Below the pieces are notes generated by a model. It was not told the DNA's origin. It did not search any database and saw nothing but the letters and a program-made list of their open reading frames with translations. DNA of 64,000 bases from Haloarcula marina (lineage in GTDB: Archaea; Halobacteriota; Halobacteria; Halobacteriales; Haloarculaceae): contig NZ_CP100404.1 in assembly GCF_024218775.1 (NCBI RefSeq), forward strand, positions 620,001 through 684,000, read 5' to 3'. Below are positions 33,649-48,682 of this stretch, piece by piece (position 1 is the first letter of the stretch; the number at the start of each line of letters is the position of its first letter). The translations under genes were made by a program, and so were the position numbers.

Positions 33649-34074
33649 ATGGAGATTGGTTTGGTAAGCTGTACGAAGAGCAAACTAGAGCAGGCCGCCA
33701 AACCCGCCGAACTCTACACTGAGTCAGCGTTCTTCAGGAAGGCCCGAGAATACGTCGAAGCGAATCACGGCGCATGGTACATCCTCTCCGCAAAACATCA
33801 TCTGCTCCACCCTGACGGACCAACTATCGAGCCGTACGAAGAGACATTGAACGGGGCATCGGTGAGCCGGAAGCGAGAGTGGTCGCAAACAATCTACGAA
33901 CAGCTACAGAGAGAGGGTTTGCTCGTGGAGGACAACAGACTGGTGCTCCATGCTGGACGTGACTATACCGAGAAACTTCTTCCACTGCTCACAGATACCG
34001 GGGTAGGTATCGAGACGCCTACTGACGGCCTGCGCTACGGGGAGACACTCGCCTGGTACAATGAACGGATTTAG
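33649..34074 (+). CDS. DUF6884-like / YaaA-related protein
   Basis: This 141-residue protein begins MEIGLVSCTKSKLEQAAKPA and has the motifs LYTESAFFRKAREYVE, WYILSAKHHLLHPDG and IEPYEETLNGASV. These are the conserved blocks of a widespread small family (DUF6884) with remote likeness to YaaA. The conserved Cys/Lys at the N-terminus and the AKH block suggest a catalytic or nucleotide/DNA-binding role, but no function is established. It is the first gene inside the element and meets a convergent gene with a four-base stop overlap. Confidence 0.75.
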   Translation: MEIGLVSCTKSKLEQAAKPAELYTESAFFRKAREYVEANHGAWYILSAKHHLLHPDGPTIEPYEETLNGASVSRKREWSQTIYEQLQREGLLVEDNRLVLHAGRDYTEKLLPLLTDTGVGIETPTDGLRYGETLAWYNERI

Positions 34075-38171: not shown

Positions 38172-39497
38172 TTACAGCAAAAATGAGTTAGATAGGTTAG
38201 AAAATTCGTCATTAAATTCGATACCGGCTGAATGAATATCGCTTGAAAGAGGGAATACGATATCCCGTATTCGAACTGGTCCAACCCACATATTCACCCG
38301 GTTTTCGAAAGAGTAAGGGTGAATAATGAGTGCCTCGTTCAGACCTTGAGAAATAGCATAGGCAGCCAATTGTTGCAAGGTCTCAGGAGATGGACCACTC
38401 GGAATCTTATATTTTGCATCCATCACGCAAATTGGTTCATTTCTTTTGAACAGCAGAAAGTCAATCTCAAACCGCTTCTTGAAGTCATCATCAATCTGGA
38501 CGTTGACCTTGGACTCCACCTGGAATTCTGGAAGAAATTCTTCATCTAACCATTTCGAGATATACTCCTCGTAGAGTGTTGGCATGTGGACCGTGTAAGG
38601 TCTCGTGATTCGTTCACCAGCTTGAATTGTAGGTCCGAGTGCCTTCAGAAAAAAGTAGCAGAGACCGTGGATTTTCTCGTAAATCTGATTCTGGCGGTTG
38701 TATACTTTCCTCAGACAATCCTGGGGTGAATAGGGTTCGAGAGAAACATGATTTTCCAAAATCTTGTACGCTCGCCGGATATTATGCCGAATCTCAGGGG
38801 AGAACTGATGGCTTTCAAGAATCTTATGTAGCGTCCACAGAATTAGTTGGTTGTTTTCCGTATCTGTGGTCAGCTCTCGGGTTTTCATATGAAGCTGTGG
38901 GTTCCACGCCTCTCGGCTGCTTTTGGAGAAGTCGATACTCCCTCGGATGAAAGAAGACTGGACCTCCTGAGTCTCATACGATTTGTCTAACCCACGATTG
39001 CCAAGGGTGGAGACCTCGCTTGCTAATATTTCTGCCAAACGTTCGTAAACACCTTCGACCGATTCTACACGGTCAAATTGTTCATAGAATTCAAAGGATT
39101 CGAGACCTCCAACATATGACTCGACTGATAGAATGTTATCAAACGGTACCTTTGGTCTTAGTTCAATTGACCACCCACCAGAGAGGACCGCACTCCCTGC
39201 GTATCCCTCATTTGTAAGCACCCAGATATTATCTGTATTTTCGGCTGGAAAGGTAACACCTACCAGACTCCCGTATGCACTCAAGAGTTCTCGGACATTT
39301 TCGTTAGTTAAACCTGGAAGGTCATATTTGTTTCCGGATTGCGGGATGGGCGTCTGGATGTTCTCAGGAAGAAGAATTCGTTGCCGGTCGAAGCCCTCAG
39401 TTATCTCCTCTCTATGCTCTTCCCAGTAGTCCAGAAAGGCGTCGTAGTCTTCCTCCAAGTCGCTATAGAAAGATTCGAGTTTCGATTCTGTCATCAC
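38172..39497 (-). CDS. mcrC: McrC-like restriction endonuclease subunit
   Basis: This 441-residue protein has the McrC layout: an N-terminal domain that contacts McrB and a C-terminal PD-(D/E)xK nuclease. Nuclease residues visible are D346 (FEIDFLLF), D360 and K362 (VMDAKYK), with the following Q-rich helix LQQLAAYA. In McrBC complexes it cuts DNA when driven by McrB NTP hydrolysis. Its gene overlaps mcrB by four bases (ATGA). It is lower in GC than chromosomal genes. A methyltransferase gene close by suggests that this version may act on unmodified rather than modified DNA. Confidence 0.88.
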   Translation of the reverse strand: MMTESKLESFYSDLEEDYDAFLDYWEEHREEITEGFDRQRILLPENIQTPIPQSGNKYDLPGLTNENVRELLSAYGSLVGVTFPAENTDNIWVLTNEGYAGSAVLSGGWSIELRPKVPFDNILSVESYVGGLESFEFYEQFDRVESVEGVYERLAEILASEVSTLGNRGLDKSYETQEVQSSFIRGSIDFSKSSREAWNPQLHMKTRELTTDTENNQLILWTLHKILESHQFSPEIRHNIRRAYKILENHVSLEPYSPQDCLRKVYNRQNQIYEKIHGLCYFFLKALGPTIQAGERITRPYTVHMPTLYEEYISKWLDEEFLPEFQVESKVNVQIDDDFKKRFEIDFLLFKRNEPICVMDAKYKIPSGPSPETLQQLAAYAISQGLNEALIIHPYSFENRVNMWVGPVRIRDIVFPLSSDIHSAGIEFNDEFSNLSNSFLL

Positions 39498-40420
39498 GAT
39501 ATGTCAATGTCATCCTGAACCTTCTCCCACTCATACTGCTTCGCCTGCTCGATATCCTCGACGAAGTATTCTTTTAGATATGGCATCACCTCTGTCTCCC
39601 AGATATCGGGTAGTGTCTCGTCCAAATCATCACGGAGGAAGTATGTGATACCCAAATATTGATCCTGATTTCCAATCGCTTTTTGATTGATTTCTTTTAA
39701 AACATCAATAAGGCCACTCACGTCGATTCCAGTGCTTTCATGGTATATTTCGAGAGTCTCATACTTCGGCAGAATCTCGAACATCGCAAACCGTCTCCGG
39801 AGGGCATAATCAACGAGTGCAATTGAGCGGTCGGCAGTATTCATTGTGCCGATTATGTAGACGTTTTCGGGAATGCTGAATTCAATAGAGTCTCCATCAG
39901 GCGTCTGATACGGGAGGTCCACCTTTCGAAGGCCCCTGTCTTCGAGCGCATAGAGGAGTTCCCCGAATACAGCAGCCGTTTCCGCTCTGTTGATTTCATC
40001 AATAAATAGAACGAAGTTCTCAGTACTTTCTTGACCAGCTTTTTCACAGAAATTTACGAAATGTCCAGATTGTGGAGGATACTTCAGGACTCCCGCCCCC
40101 GTGTCATATTTCGGTCTTATACCCTGAATAAACTCTTCATAGGAATAGGACGGATGAAATTGGATTTCCTTCACCCTATCTGGATGACCAGCCAAATTTA
40201 ATGCAATCTGTCTGGCGATGTACGTCTTCCCTGTGCCCGGTGGGCCGTAGAATATCGATTGGCCTTTTCGTTCAGTCGACCGCCGCCAGAGACGAATTTT
40301 GTCTTCTTCGAATCCAATTTCGTCATTAATGTTTTCGATGCTGGGTACCTGCCGGATGCCTAATTGGTAGACATCGAGATTCCGCGGATGGTATCTCGGT
40401 CCACTTGATGAGCCACTCAT
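39494..40420 (-). CDS. mcrB: McrB-like AAA+ NTPase
   Basis: This 308-residue protein is almost only the AAA+ motor: Walker A GPPGTGKT at 59-66, Walker B FIDEINRAE at 139-147, and the McrB-specific motif MNTADRSIALVDYALRRRF at 193-211. Typical McrB proteins carry an additional N-terminal DNA-recognition domain. Here only about 35 residues precede the motor, so target recognition must come from another protein, perhaps the gene overlapping it upstream. It has four-base overlaps on both sides. Confidence 0.88.
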   Translation of the reverse strand: MSGSSSGPRYHPRNLDVYQLGIRQVPSIENINDEIGFEEDKIRLWRRSTERKGQSIFYGPPGTGKTYIARQIALNLAGHPDRVKEIQFHPSYSYEEFIQGIRPKYDTGAGVLKYPPQSGHFVNFCEKAGQESTENFVLFIDEINRAETAAVFGELLYALEDRGLRKVDLPYQTPDGDSIEFSIPENVYIIGTMNTADRSIALVDYALRRRFAMFEILPKYETLEIYHESTGIDVSGLIDVLKEINQKAIGNQDQYLGITYFLRDDLDETLPDIWETEVMPYLKEYFVEDIEQAKQYEWEKVQDDIDIS

Positions 40421-41139
40421 GAGATTACCTCGTATGGATGTTCATCTAACTGGTGGTTTTCGGTATCAAACAGGGTCTCGAATTCTGAATGCTCAGACCC
40501 ATCTTCTTGCTTTGGGAAACAGAAAACTGACCGAAATGTGGCTACCACCGTATCTCTATCCGGCTCCTCTTCGCGGTCGATAACGAAATTTCGGAGAAGA
40601 TAACCAGCCAGTGGATAGAACGCGAACTTATCGCCCTTGTTGAATTCTTCTACCGCGTTCGAAGCGTGGTCCTCCTCTAAAATGTAGTCATAAGGACTTG
40701 ACGGTTGGTCTGGAGCTACAGCCACAAAGGGACCACTCGTAGAGGGCATTGTTCCGCTCGTGGTAGAGTGGGCGAGTCGTCCAGCTACATGGTCTCCTGT
40801 CCACATATTCCGGCTTTGGACTGCCCAGGGGCGATAGTACTCATCGCCCTCCTCATTCCCGGGAACATTAATGAATTGGTTGAAAAGTTCTAAGAGTTCA
40901 TTCTCAGTTGGCCCAACTGTAGGATAATCGTCAGGGATACAGTAGGACTCGCAACATCCTGCCTCTTCGTATGTCAGTTTTCGATAGATGAGATAAGGGA
41001 GAAGAAACGTGTTATATGACTCACTCTCTAAGATACCCACACATTCTCGAACTACCTCTTCCTTTATCCCGTAAGTCCGAACTTCTGCCTCTTCCACACC
41101 ACCGTCCGTTAACTCATCATCTCCCTCACTCGAGGACAT
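40417..41139 (-). CDS. Unknown first gene of the McrBC operon, possible recognition subunit
   Basis: This 240-residue acidic protein begins MSSSEGDDELTDGGVEEAEV. It has a helical part with a Cys-rich turn (EEAGCCESYCIPDDYP) and then VQSRNMWTGDHVAGRLAHST, FVAVAPDQPSSPYDYI and a C-terminal segment with FYPLAGYLLRNFVID. I do not recognise a family. Its ATGA overlap with mcrB, and the lack of a recognition domain in that McrB, make a specificity or regulatory role plausible. A TATA-like element lies 33-38 bases upstream of its start. Confidence 0.7.
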   Translation of the reverse strand: MSSSEGDDELTDGGVEEAEVRTYGIKEEVVRECVGILESESYNTFLLPYLIYRKLTYEEAGCCESYCIPDDYPTVGPTENELLELFNQFINVPGNEEGDEYYRPWAVQSRNMWTGDHVAGRLAHSTTSGTMPSTSGPFVAVAPDQPSSPYDYILEEDHASNAVEEFNKGDKFAFYPLAGYLLRNFVIDREEEPDRDTVVATFRSVFCFPKQEDGSEHSEFETLFDTENHQLDEHPYEVIS

Positions 41140-41225: not shown

Positions 41226-42617
41226 TTATTCAGTGAAATCTTCTAATTTCTGGTCTTCGAACGATGTGTAGGTGTCCCAGTCCTCGTCAGTTTGCGAATC
41301 GAGACGGTTTTCGATTATCTTCTTATACTCCTCGGAGATTTCAGAACCGACCCATGGTCGATTCGTTTTTGTAGCAGCCACAGCAGTCGTCCCTGACCCT
41401 AAGAATGGGTCATAGACAAGGTCCGATGACTTTGCCTCTGTACTTAACATGATACACCTGCCAGGCAGTTCCACTGGGAAGGGAGCTGCGTGTTGGTATT
41501 CCCCCTTTGCCGGTGGCATCTCCCAGATTGGTCGAGTGTCCGGTTCGTCAGTGATTTCTCCGTTATTCACCTCAGATGTCTCTTCGCTTTCTTGCGATTC
41601 GAAGTCCCAAACGGTACGGAGATTCTCGTTCTCGAATTGAGAGCGGGCACCCAGTCGTTTGTCTCGGAAGTCACGCCATCGGGATTCGTTGAATTTGTAC
41701 CGCTTCGATTTCGAAATTAGAAGAATAACCTCGTGGCCGACAGTGGGACGGTCTCCAACTGTCTCGGGTACAACATTCTGCTTCCGCCAGACTATTACTG
41801 AGCGAACATAGAATCCACATCTCTGAAGACCTTTGCCGATTTGATAGGGAATGAGCGTTAGGTCCTTATCCTTCAGATATTCATGTCCTGCGGAGTGACG
41901 TTTGGCATTCAGGTCTGCCCAGGTCCTCTCCTCGTTCGTCGCCATCGCTGTCATCCGTTCCAGAGAAGTCTCACGAATCTCTGTCCGGGTGTTATAGACA
42001 TCCCCAACATTCCACCAGATTGTCCCGGTTTCCTTCAGAATAGGACGCATCCGAAGTAGGAACTCAAGCGTGTGTCGAATGTACTCTTCTGGGGTTGACT
42101 CCCCTCCAAATGCGATGTCAGTACCGTCTGACCACGAGACGTTGAATGCTTCAGAATATACCCGCATTCCCCAGTACGGGGGAGATGTAATTACAGTTTG
42201 CACACTCTCTTCAGGAAACATTTCAATATGGTCCACGGCTGACCCTTGATGGACCTTATTCGGGCCAAATTTGTTCTCGTCCCATCGGTTTCCATTCGGG
42301 TTCTCCAAGTAATCAATCAGGTCAGTAAGACCAGCTAAGCCATCGTCAGTGGTAAAGTGACTGTCGCAGAGAACCGCAGGCTGGGGCCTCATCCGCGCAT
42401 AAACCTCCGCTAATTGCTGTAGAGAGATGGTGGATGCTGCCGTTTCATCCAGACCTTCCCGAATCACCTTCTTCAGATGTGCCCTTCGCATCCCGACCAA
42501 ATTCGCGGCAATTTCTGAGTCGACACTCCGGTCCGGGAGGTCACTGATAATTTCTTCCCTACTGGCAGGAATTGGAGAGTGTGGTTTTATTTCCCGTTGA
42601 ATTTCGTCGTCAGTCAT
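41226..42617 (-). CDS. DNA methyltransferase, SPPY-type (probably N4-cytosine)
   Basis: This 463-residue protein has motif IV TSPPYWG at 144-150 early and motif I YDPFLGSGTTAV at 402-413 late, the beta-class order. SPPYW is most common in N4-cytosine enzymes, but N6-adenine cannot be excluded. An N-terminal region of about 110 residues includes a helix-turn-helix-like stretch (IAANLVGMRRAHLKKVI). A long insert (residues 220-370) probably recognises DNA. A strong Shine-Dalgarno AAGGAGGT precedes the ATG by 11 bases. It likely protects host DNA from the adjacent McrBC-like nuclease. Confidence 0.88.
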   Translation of the reverse strand: MTDDEIQREIKPHSPIPASREEIISDLPDRSVDSEIAANLVGMRRAHLKKVIREGLDETAASTISLQQLAEVYARMRPQPAVLCDSHFTTDDGLAGLTDLIDYLENPNGNRWDENKFGPNKVHQGSAVDHIEMFPEESVQTVITSPPYWGMRVYSEAFNVSWSDGTDIAFGGESTPEEYIRHTLEFLLRMRPILKETGTIWWNVGDVYNTRTEIRETSLERMTAMATNEERTWADLNAKRHSAGHEYLKDKDLTLIPYQIGKGLQRCGFYVRSVIVWRKQNVVPETVGDRPTVGHEVILLISKSKRYKFNESRWRDFRDKRLGARSQFENENLRTVWDFESQESEETSEVNNGEITDEPDTRPIWEMPPAKGEYQHAAPFPVELPGRCIMLSTEAKSSDLVYDPFLGSGTTAVAATKTNRPWVGSEISEEYKKIIENRLDSQTDEDWDTYTSFEDQKLEDFTE

Positions 42618-47505: not shown

Positions 47506-48519
47506 CTAAATTCCGTTCAGATAGTTCTCGCGCTGTCGTCGCCTCTCCTCTTTAGTCCGTCCGTCGTAGTGCTTTTCCAACACCTCTCGGCTCACGTCCA
47601 TCCGGTCTGACGCGATATCTTTGGGTACGTCAGCCATCCGGTGAGCAGTGATTGACCCTCGACGGACAGCGTGGGGAGCAACAGAGTCGGGACACTTGCT
47701 GGCCCCGTGGTAGGTAGCCGCCTCACATGCGACGGGGTCCCGGTCGTGGGGACACTCCTTCCCGATTGCACAGGGTCGCGTGAGCGTGTAGACCTGTGAC
47801 TGTATCGTGGTATAGTGGGGCCGACCACTACCGGTTCCGAGAAGTGGCATCCGGCCCTCGTCGTCAGGCGCTTTTGGATGCTCCGAATCGATGTAGTCCT
47901 GTATCACCGTACAGAGGTCGTCGCTGATGTTCACCTGTCGCTCGCCACGCTCTCGATTCTTGAGCTTCGTCGTCGGTCTGTTCACCAAGTCGAGATACCC
48001 ATCTTCGGGGTAGAAATCGTCAACATCCAGTGCCCGAGCCGCCCCGGTTCGCATCCCGGTTTCCCACAGCAGATAGAAGCTGACGTGACGGAGTGATGCG
48101 TACTCAAACTTATCGGCGTACTCAAGCACGGCTTCTGCTTCGTCTCTCAGGATGATTTGGTCAGAGACGTAGTCCTCTTCGGATACTTCGGGCATCGAGA
48201 CTCGTTCATGGACTCCCCGTGGGGCTACTTCGAGACGCTCGCAGAACTGGAGGAACTGACGAAGGGTTCCCAAGTGATAGTTCAAGGTTACTGGCGCTAC
48301 ATCCTCGGCTCGCCACTGCTTGAACTGGTGGAGATGTTTACCACTCACATCGTTCATATCATTAAGTCCGTTCACTTCGCTCCATTCCAAGAACCGCTGA
48401 AGCCTGCTTTTGTGGTTCTGGTGGGACGATTCTGCCAAGTCGTGCTTGCGGTCGGCAAGGTATGCATCGACCGCGTTTTCTGGTGTCATTGATTCCATTT
48501 TTGCTCCGTGTAATCGCAT
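47506..48519 (-). CDS. int: Tyrosine recombinase / integrase
   Basis: This 337-residue protein begins at ATG 48519 (MRLHGAKMESMTPENAVDAY). The frame upstream reads through attR and is rejected. An N-terminal SAM-like core-binding domain spans about 12-95. Catalytic residues seen are R157 (ETGMRTGAARAL), the H283-x-x-R286 pair (PHAVRRGSI) and Y318 (EKHYDGRT). A cysteine-rich insert (C250, C256, C265, C276) is common in haloarchaeal integrases. It lies next to attR and is transcribed into the element, so it is most likely the enzyme that inserted it into tRNA-Ala. Confidence 0.92.
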   Translation of the reverse strand: MRLHGAKMESMTPENAVDAYLADRKHDLAESSHQNHKSRLQRFLEWSEVNGLNDMNDVSGKHLHQFKQWRAEDVAPVTLNYHLGTLRQFLQFCERLEVAPRGVHERVSMPEVSEEDYVSDQIILRDEAEAVLEYADKFEYASLRHVSFYLLWETGMRTGAARALDVDDFYPEDGYLDLVNRPTTKLKNRERGERQVNISDDLCTVIQDYIDSEHPKAPDDEGRMPLLGTGSGRPHYTTIQSQVYTLTRPCAIGKECPHDRDPVACEAATYHGASKCPDSVAPHAVRRGSITAHRMADVPKDIASDRMDVSREVLEKHYDGRTKEERRRQRENYLNGI

Positions 48520-48540
48520 CAATCGAGCCAGAACCGACGC

Positions 48541-48555
48541 GCATCTGCTAACAGG
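48541..48555 (-). repeat. 15-bp motif, right-end inverted copy
   Basis: It is the exact reverse complement of 33577-33591. It lies 22 bases upstream of the integrase start and 91 bases inside attR, so it could be an integrase arm site, an operator for int, or both. Confidence 0.6.
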
Positions 48556-48646
48556 TAGGTGACTGAGCGAAGCGAGGGAGCCTGAGTGGACGAAGCCGGG
48601 TGGCCCGGTGTCAGATTCCCAGCCGAACGCCGTTGGCGTGAGGCTT

Positions 48647-48682
48647 GGAAGAGGCCCCGGGTTCAAATCCCGGCGAGTCCAT
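48647..48682 (+). repeat. attR, 36-bp direct repeat of tRNA-Ala 3' half
   Basis: It is identical to 33275-33310. Only the tRNA 3' half is present here, with unrelated sequence upstream, so this is the displaced copy and not a functional tRNA. Confidence 0.93.

Follow-up and report, generated by a model that had tools for sequence, protein, structure and literature searches.

What does a gene do that lies between a DNA methyltransferase (MTase) and a McrB motor lacking its N-terminal head, and whose product resembles no recognized family? The question is raised by gene X of Haloarcula marina, which is encoded in a 64,000-nucleotide stretch of contig NZ_CP100404.1 (positions 620,001 to 684,000), the whole of which is hereafter called the window. 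We propose, with a probability of roughly 0.6, that X recognizes the target and acts as adaptor in an MTase-linked McrBC restriction system whose effectors are interchangeable.

The cassette and the sequence of X

The four genes of the cassette all lie on the minus strand, in the order MTase-X-McrB-McrC. The first (41226..42617) specifies a 463-residue MTase of the N4-cytosine or N6-adenine type with a TSPPYW motif (PF01555, 1.8e-46; PADLOC MTase_II, 8.4e-61). It is situated 86 bp upstream of X on the same strand; hence the overlap with McrB is not the sole clear context of X, as the first-pass annotation of this DNA had it. X itself (40417..41139) is, as stated there, an ORF that overlaps the McrB gene: it opens with an ATG, encodes 240 residues and shares 4 bp, ATGA, between its stop and the McrB start (40417..40420). 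A further 4-bp overlap joins the McrB and McrC ORFs. The 308-residue McrB (39494..40420) is an AAA+ GTPase with a P-loop at residue 59 and an NTAD signature, matched by AAA_5 (1.6e-19) from residue 56, and McrC (38172..39497) is its 441-residue nuclease partner (PF10117, 1.2e-27), in which a D...DAK nuclease motif is discernible by eye. The NCBIfam models for McrB (NF008457) and McrC give 1.9e-48 and 1.9e-22, both far under the full-length cut-offs. About 5 kb from the cassette lies a tyrosine-integrase-like gene (47506-48666, minus strand; PF02899, 6.9e-6; PF00589, 3.2e-5), which suggests a mobile element in this region, and the opposite flank of the cassette encodes a DUF6884 protein on the plus strand (33649-34074; PF21818, 2.7e-40).

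The first-pass annotation had assigned X to no recognized family, and our searches bear this out: the window copy has no match in Pfam (E ≤ 1), PADLOC (E ≤ 0.1), NCBIfam (E ≤ 1) or the PDB sequences (E ≤ 5), and for the family profile the best PDB chain stood at E 0.063. Across the 13 members of the family alignment A2, Pfam returned marginal matches only (RteC in five of them, best 0.023; two other families in one member each). A comparison with known McrB heads, which had also been suggested, revealed at the sequence level no likeness to DUF3578, EVE or any other annotated head, and Pfam likewise yielded no B3-type match. The Cys-rich GCCESYC turn that had been singled out (residues 61-67; 40939..40959, minus strand) occurs in the window copy alone and is missing from the other rows of alignments A2 and A6; it is thus not a family feature, and a zinc site at this unconserved turn was rejected. 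The count of invariant Asp, Glu, His or Lys residues across eight X rows is zero, which fits a binding protein. AlphaFold2 models were unusable both for the window X alone (mean pLDDT 33.8) and for an alignment of the window X with its homologs from the IMG/VR loci L106 and L108 described below (mean pLDDT 36.1).

Within the order, the X profile matched 11 of 392 genomes; within the class, a single-sequence search matched eight of 391. Searching the phylum gave four of 294 genomes, namely three haloarchaea and one spurious match. Two candidates were dropped: G472 (E 0.005, phylum search), where the match sits in an unrelated long ORF, and G372 (E 0.009, single-sequence search), which the profile did not recover. 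X was further found in two haloarchaeal plasmid records and, by way of their MTases, in two IMG/VR contigs. Phage records contained no X, a further scan of genome contigs gave nothing new, and neither did viral contigs searched with X queries, the X of L106 retrieving only itself. Judged from these homologs, X is a conserved gene.

X and the missing head of McrB

The McrB of the window had been described as headless, and its domain layout agrees: the AAA_5 match and the P-loop both begin within the first 60 residues, and a McrB this short is rare among haloarchaea. The order yielded 59 McrB matches, in 55 of 382 genomes. Just two are as short as this, those of the window (open frame of 315 aa) and of genome G220 (328 aa), and both adjoin X; the other 57 frames measure at least 519 aa. 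The suggested tie between X and the missing head gains from two loci that we obtained by searching IMG/VR with the MTase alignment of two further classes of X loci (types B and C, see below), which returned 223 relatives, of which 80 loci were kept. In L108, a 506-aa McrB starts with a domain homologous to X (residues 3-183), with E 8.6e-13 among the 5245 ORFs of these loci, the next unrelated ORF standing at E 1.2; here the MTase is encoded on the strand opposite to the X-McrB fusion. In L106, a separate X (E 9e-37) is found in the gene order of the window, MTase-X-headless McrB-McrC. Since both loci were picked by their MTase and not by X, they constitute independent support for X as a McrB head. 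It counts against this that X occurs in only two of the five IMG/VR loci whose MTase is at least 47% identical, and in two of all 80. On balance, the sequence evidence gives good support to the idea of X as a detached McrB head, for in L108 the equivalent domain is the McrB N-terminus, and X accordingly looks like a head that has been split off.

A tree of 14 motor domains, in which four of the 11 inner branches are marked as well supported, pairs the window motor with that of G220 (95/89), beside McrBs of cyanobacteria that have a head; the motors of L106 and L108 also pair (97/94), in a group with headed alphaproteobacterial McrBs (100/99). The head of a single-chain Calothrix McrB gave no match to X (hhalign probability 0.5%). 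MTase-McrB-McrC operons with a McrB head of about 230 aa also occur on plasmids of Roseibium, Sphingobium and Mesorhizobium (L185, L186 and L187), and the head from L185 has no match in Pfam. An alignment of such alphaproteobacterial heads (A7) gave a weak N-terminal match to X over 56 columns (hhalign probability 5.7%). Its local score is 25.1, whereas 150 column shuffles reached 23.1 at most and reversal gave 21.3; the global alignment is not significant, and we regard this resemblance as a lead and not as a result.

Effectors of the X loci and a shared N-terminal peptide

We read 14 distinct X loci, counting once each the pairs L029/L033 (same X) and L030/L034 (same plasmid); the contigs of L014 and G220 are cut off by contig ends. 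Type A (n=4) combines X with McrB and McrC, and comprises the window, the second X of G220, L106 and the fused L108. Type B (n=8; L011, L012, L013, L014, L015, L029/L033, L031 and L032) carries PbeA/PbeC-like genes, which profiles identified in L011 (1.5e-223 and 2.1e-229) and which were assigned by eye from the ORFs in the other loci, with only the PbeC end visible in L014. The type B loci encode an additional protein of about 150 residues, whose position fits PbeD/DndE and which has no Pfam or PADLOC match in L011; phosphorothioation genes were not recognized by eye among the ORFs around X in these loci. Type C (n=2; L034 and L035) has a 685-aa GHKL-like ATPase, whose HATPase_c_3 match of 0.0074 is under the curated cut-off, and a 247-aa protein. 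These two precede MTase-X (L034 5417-8283; L035 11409-14365), and neither is represented in PADLOC.

An MTase gene is present in all 14 loci. X overlaps or almost touches the MTase stop in several of them (L011, L013), and in L015 and the first system of G220 the MTase lies past the next gene. The type B and C MTases are 47-61% identical to one another and 21-27% identical to that of the window. Over eight loci, the similarity of X correlates with that of the MTase (Mantel r 0.925, 10/5000 permutations; r 0.73, as a bare coefficient, without the window). The window, an outlier, contributes most to this result, which shared ancestry alone could yield.

The halves of the second X of G220 stand at two contig ends (L010 13682-14161 on contig C64 and L012 1-300 on contig C44). 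Each end has a 9-bp direct repeat, CGTTCAGTC, as well as the 9-mer GATTAAACA in inverted orientation, a pattern that an insertion element would leave; such an element appears to interrupt the gene, and from the 9-bp repeat we infer that the contigs join. Ahead of this X is an MTase of type B/C, which shares 57% identity with its L011 counterpart; behind it comes McrBC, with a 4-bp overlap between X and McrB, and the McrB motors of G220 and the window are 53% identical. Its N-terminal half is identical to the type C X of L034 at 38 of 71 positions and to the window X at seven of 33; for the C-terminal half the figures are 52 of 125 with L015 and 33 of 118 with the window. Hence, the sequence of X appears to follow the class of the MTase and not the effector, since this copy resembles the type B/C versions despite its McrBC neighbor; here too, shared ancestry alone may be the cause.

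That X should be a subunit of the MTase, either as activator or as target-recognition partner outside the restriction arm, is a reading to which the ubiquitous MTase, its near contact with X and their parallel divergence lend themselves. We nevertheless consider it unlikely, because the X of L108 is fused to a McrB motor and the MTase there is encoded on the opposite strand, and because X overlaps McrB in the window and in G220, with the MTase separate.

In types B and C, the gene after X begins with a motif resembling R[ST]..[KR]VR.L....LGIP. With a 13-column matrix trained on six type B/C copies only, the VR.L....LGIP peptide is also clear on the McrBs of L106 (21.9 bits) and G220 (22.5 bits); at 21.9 bits the background is zero of 450 haloarchaeal ORFs and, in 1069 ORFs of the IMG/VR loci, that of L106 itself only. 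The window McrB has a weak copy near its N-terminus, HPRNLDVYQLGIR (40352..40390, minus strand), in a position equivalent to those in G220, L106 and L108; its 9.5 bits are reached by 13 of 450 ORFs, so that it is in the right place and not significant alone. The same is true of the linker between X and the motor in L108, whose 10.1 bits seven of 450 ORFs reach. A 17-column matrix that includes G220 leaves the window copy equalled by 10 of 450 ORFs and by 125 of 10000 shuffles. When a peptide HMM was run on 44 genomes, 11 of them with X and 33 lacking it, 11 matches scored below 1e-8, each of them adjoining X, and nothing better than 0.01 turned up away from it. Because these positives were themselves used in training or nearly duplicate sequences that were, the search is informative on specificity alone, and it missed the window McrB copy at E ≤ 1.

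In types B and C the proteins after X match cytidine deaminases of the PDB (best 6.2e-12). The zinc ligands, a His and two Cys, are kept in all seven rows (L011, L012, L013, L015, L029, L034 and L035). At the position that we take to correspond to the catalytic Glu of the HAE motif, all seven have Leu or Ile, and the next residue is an invariant Glu; these pseudo-deaminases would thus have lost catalysis. The protein of L011 is further fused to DNA_gyraseA_C propeller repeats (PF03989, 1.9e-56), as, by eye, are those of L012 and L015. Because the peptide also occurs on these motor-less proteins, its role probably goes beyond the motor, and we infer that it docks on X. In the McrBs of E. coli and Thermococcus, guanine-recognizing pieces are located in the head linker or where helix 1 begins (PMC7680126); a linker role of this kind therefore competes with docking in McrB, but not in the pseudo-deaminases. 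Tentatively, X and VR.L....LGIP might then form a plug and socket, in which one MTase-paired reader is connected to at least three unrelated effectors (McrBC, PbeA/PbeC and the GHKL ATPase) by a docking peptide borne either by the effector itself or by a zinc-binding pseudo-cytidine-deaminase go-between.

Proposed mechanism and relation to known systems

In the mechanism that we envisage for the window, the MTase would mark the target sites of the host, and X would recognize the same sites when unmarked, a role that presumes both DNA reading and a preference for unmethylated DNA. By way of the peptide at the McrB N-terminus, which it probably binds, X would load the headless ring; McrB would then move along the DNA and McrC would cut. 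In the related operons, X would pass its signal to the peptide-bearing pseudo-deaminases of the PbeA/PbeC or GHKL-ATPase systems. In restriction enzymes, the site-reading part is normally built into the cutter, or else cutter and methylase have it in common within one fixed complex. If our proposal is correct, a separate reader that follows the methylase would explain how effectors are swapped without loss of the self/non-self code, and the loading of the McrB ring would become directly testable.

The head of E. coli McrB reads methylcytosine (PMC11090510), and X could likewise read modified DNA as type IV McrBC heads do, with the MTase merely co-traveling or marking DNA for another purpose; X having no known fold, this is conceivable, yet decidedly unlikely, inasmuch as a co-encoded MTase that produced the target would be self-destructive, X diverges along with its MTase, and it matches neither DUF3578 nor EVE. 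We rate as very improbable a role as an assembly factor or inhibitor that reads no DNA and keeps the McrB ring switched off pending a signal: X does accompany three effector types, as a general switch might, but in L108 it replaces the head, which in the characterized McrBs is the DNA-recognition part, and a headless McrB without X as reader would leave the cassette devoid of a specificity part unless the MTase supplied one. That X is an enzyme with DNA or nucleotides as its substrate, a reading for which again the want of a known fold leaves room, is scarcely credible given the absence of invariant Asp, Glu, His or Lys and of any family match.

The proposed MTase-linked McrBC system has a precedent in LlaJI, in which McrBC-like R1 and R2 proteins operate with MTases to restrict unmethylated DNA (PMC1459862, PMC12707154). 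Like LlaJI, the window encodes a McrB-like motor and a McrC-like nuclease with an MTase in one cassette; unlike it, the head is separate and there is a single PF01555 MTase, whereas LlaJI has a B3 head within R1 and two MTases. A head fused to the motor, as in LlaJI, is thus not seen in the window, and the fused form exists in L108. In layout and length, the 308-aa McrB with X as a third restriction ORF is reminiscent of LlaI and BsuMI, which have short McrBs (337 and 343 aa) in three-ORF restriction cassettes (PMC1459862). Type IV McrBC systems of the E. coli kind differ from the window in that both its McrB and X lack DUF3578 and an MTase gene lies upstream.

A census of McrB GTPases reports NxxD versions linked to DNA methyltransferases and defers these branches to another publication (PMC11090510); the window McrB is also MTase-linked, and the accessible part of the census does not mention a split head. 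We recognized no description of X in the literature searched, and one may exist given that deferral. We also considered MTaX1 (PF20296), a domain said to accompany the methylases of CxC systems and of several R-M systems and proposed to discriminate modified DNA (PMC10853773). X was rejected as a version of it, as PF20296 is unmatched by all 13 members of A2 (E ≤ 10) and by the X of L106 and L108 (E ≤ 1); in a survey, PF20296 was found in none of 60 relatives and in one of 294 genomes of the phylum, below the cut-off.

The type B relatives, and not the window, resemble PbeABCD, a CxC ABC-ATPase/DndE kind of system, in their PbeA and PbeC genes. They differ from it by the addition of X and a pseudo-deaminase, and the window has no PbeA/PbeC genes. 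In the work of Xiong et al., 155 of 320 solitary pbeAC had MTase genes nearby (PMC6459918), and if our proposal holds, X suggests a reader for these MTase-linked PbeAC operons noted in 2019. GHKL ATPases, the effector class of type C, are likewise known in restriction-modification operons (PMC2292703).
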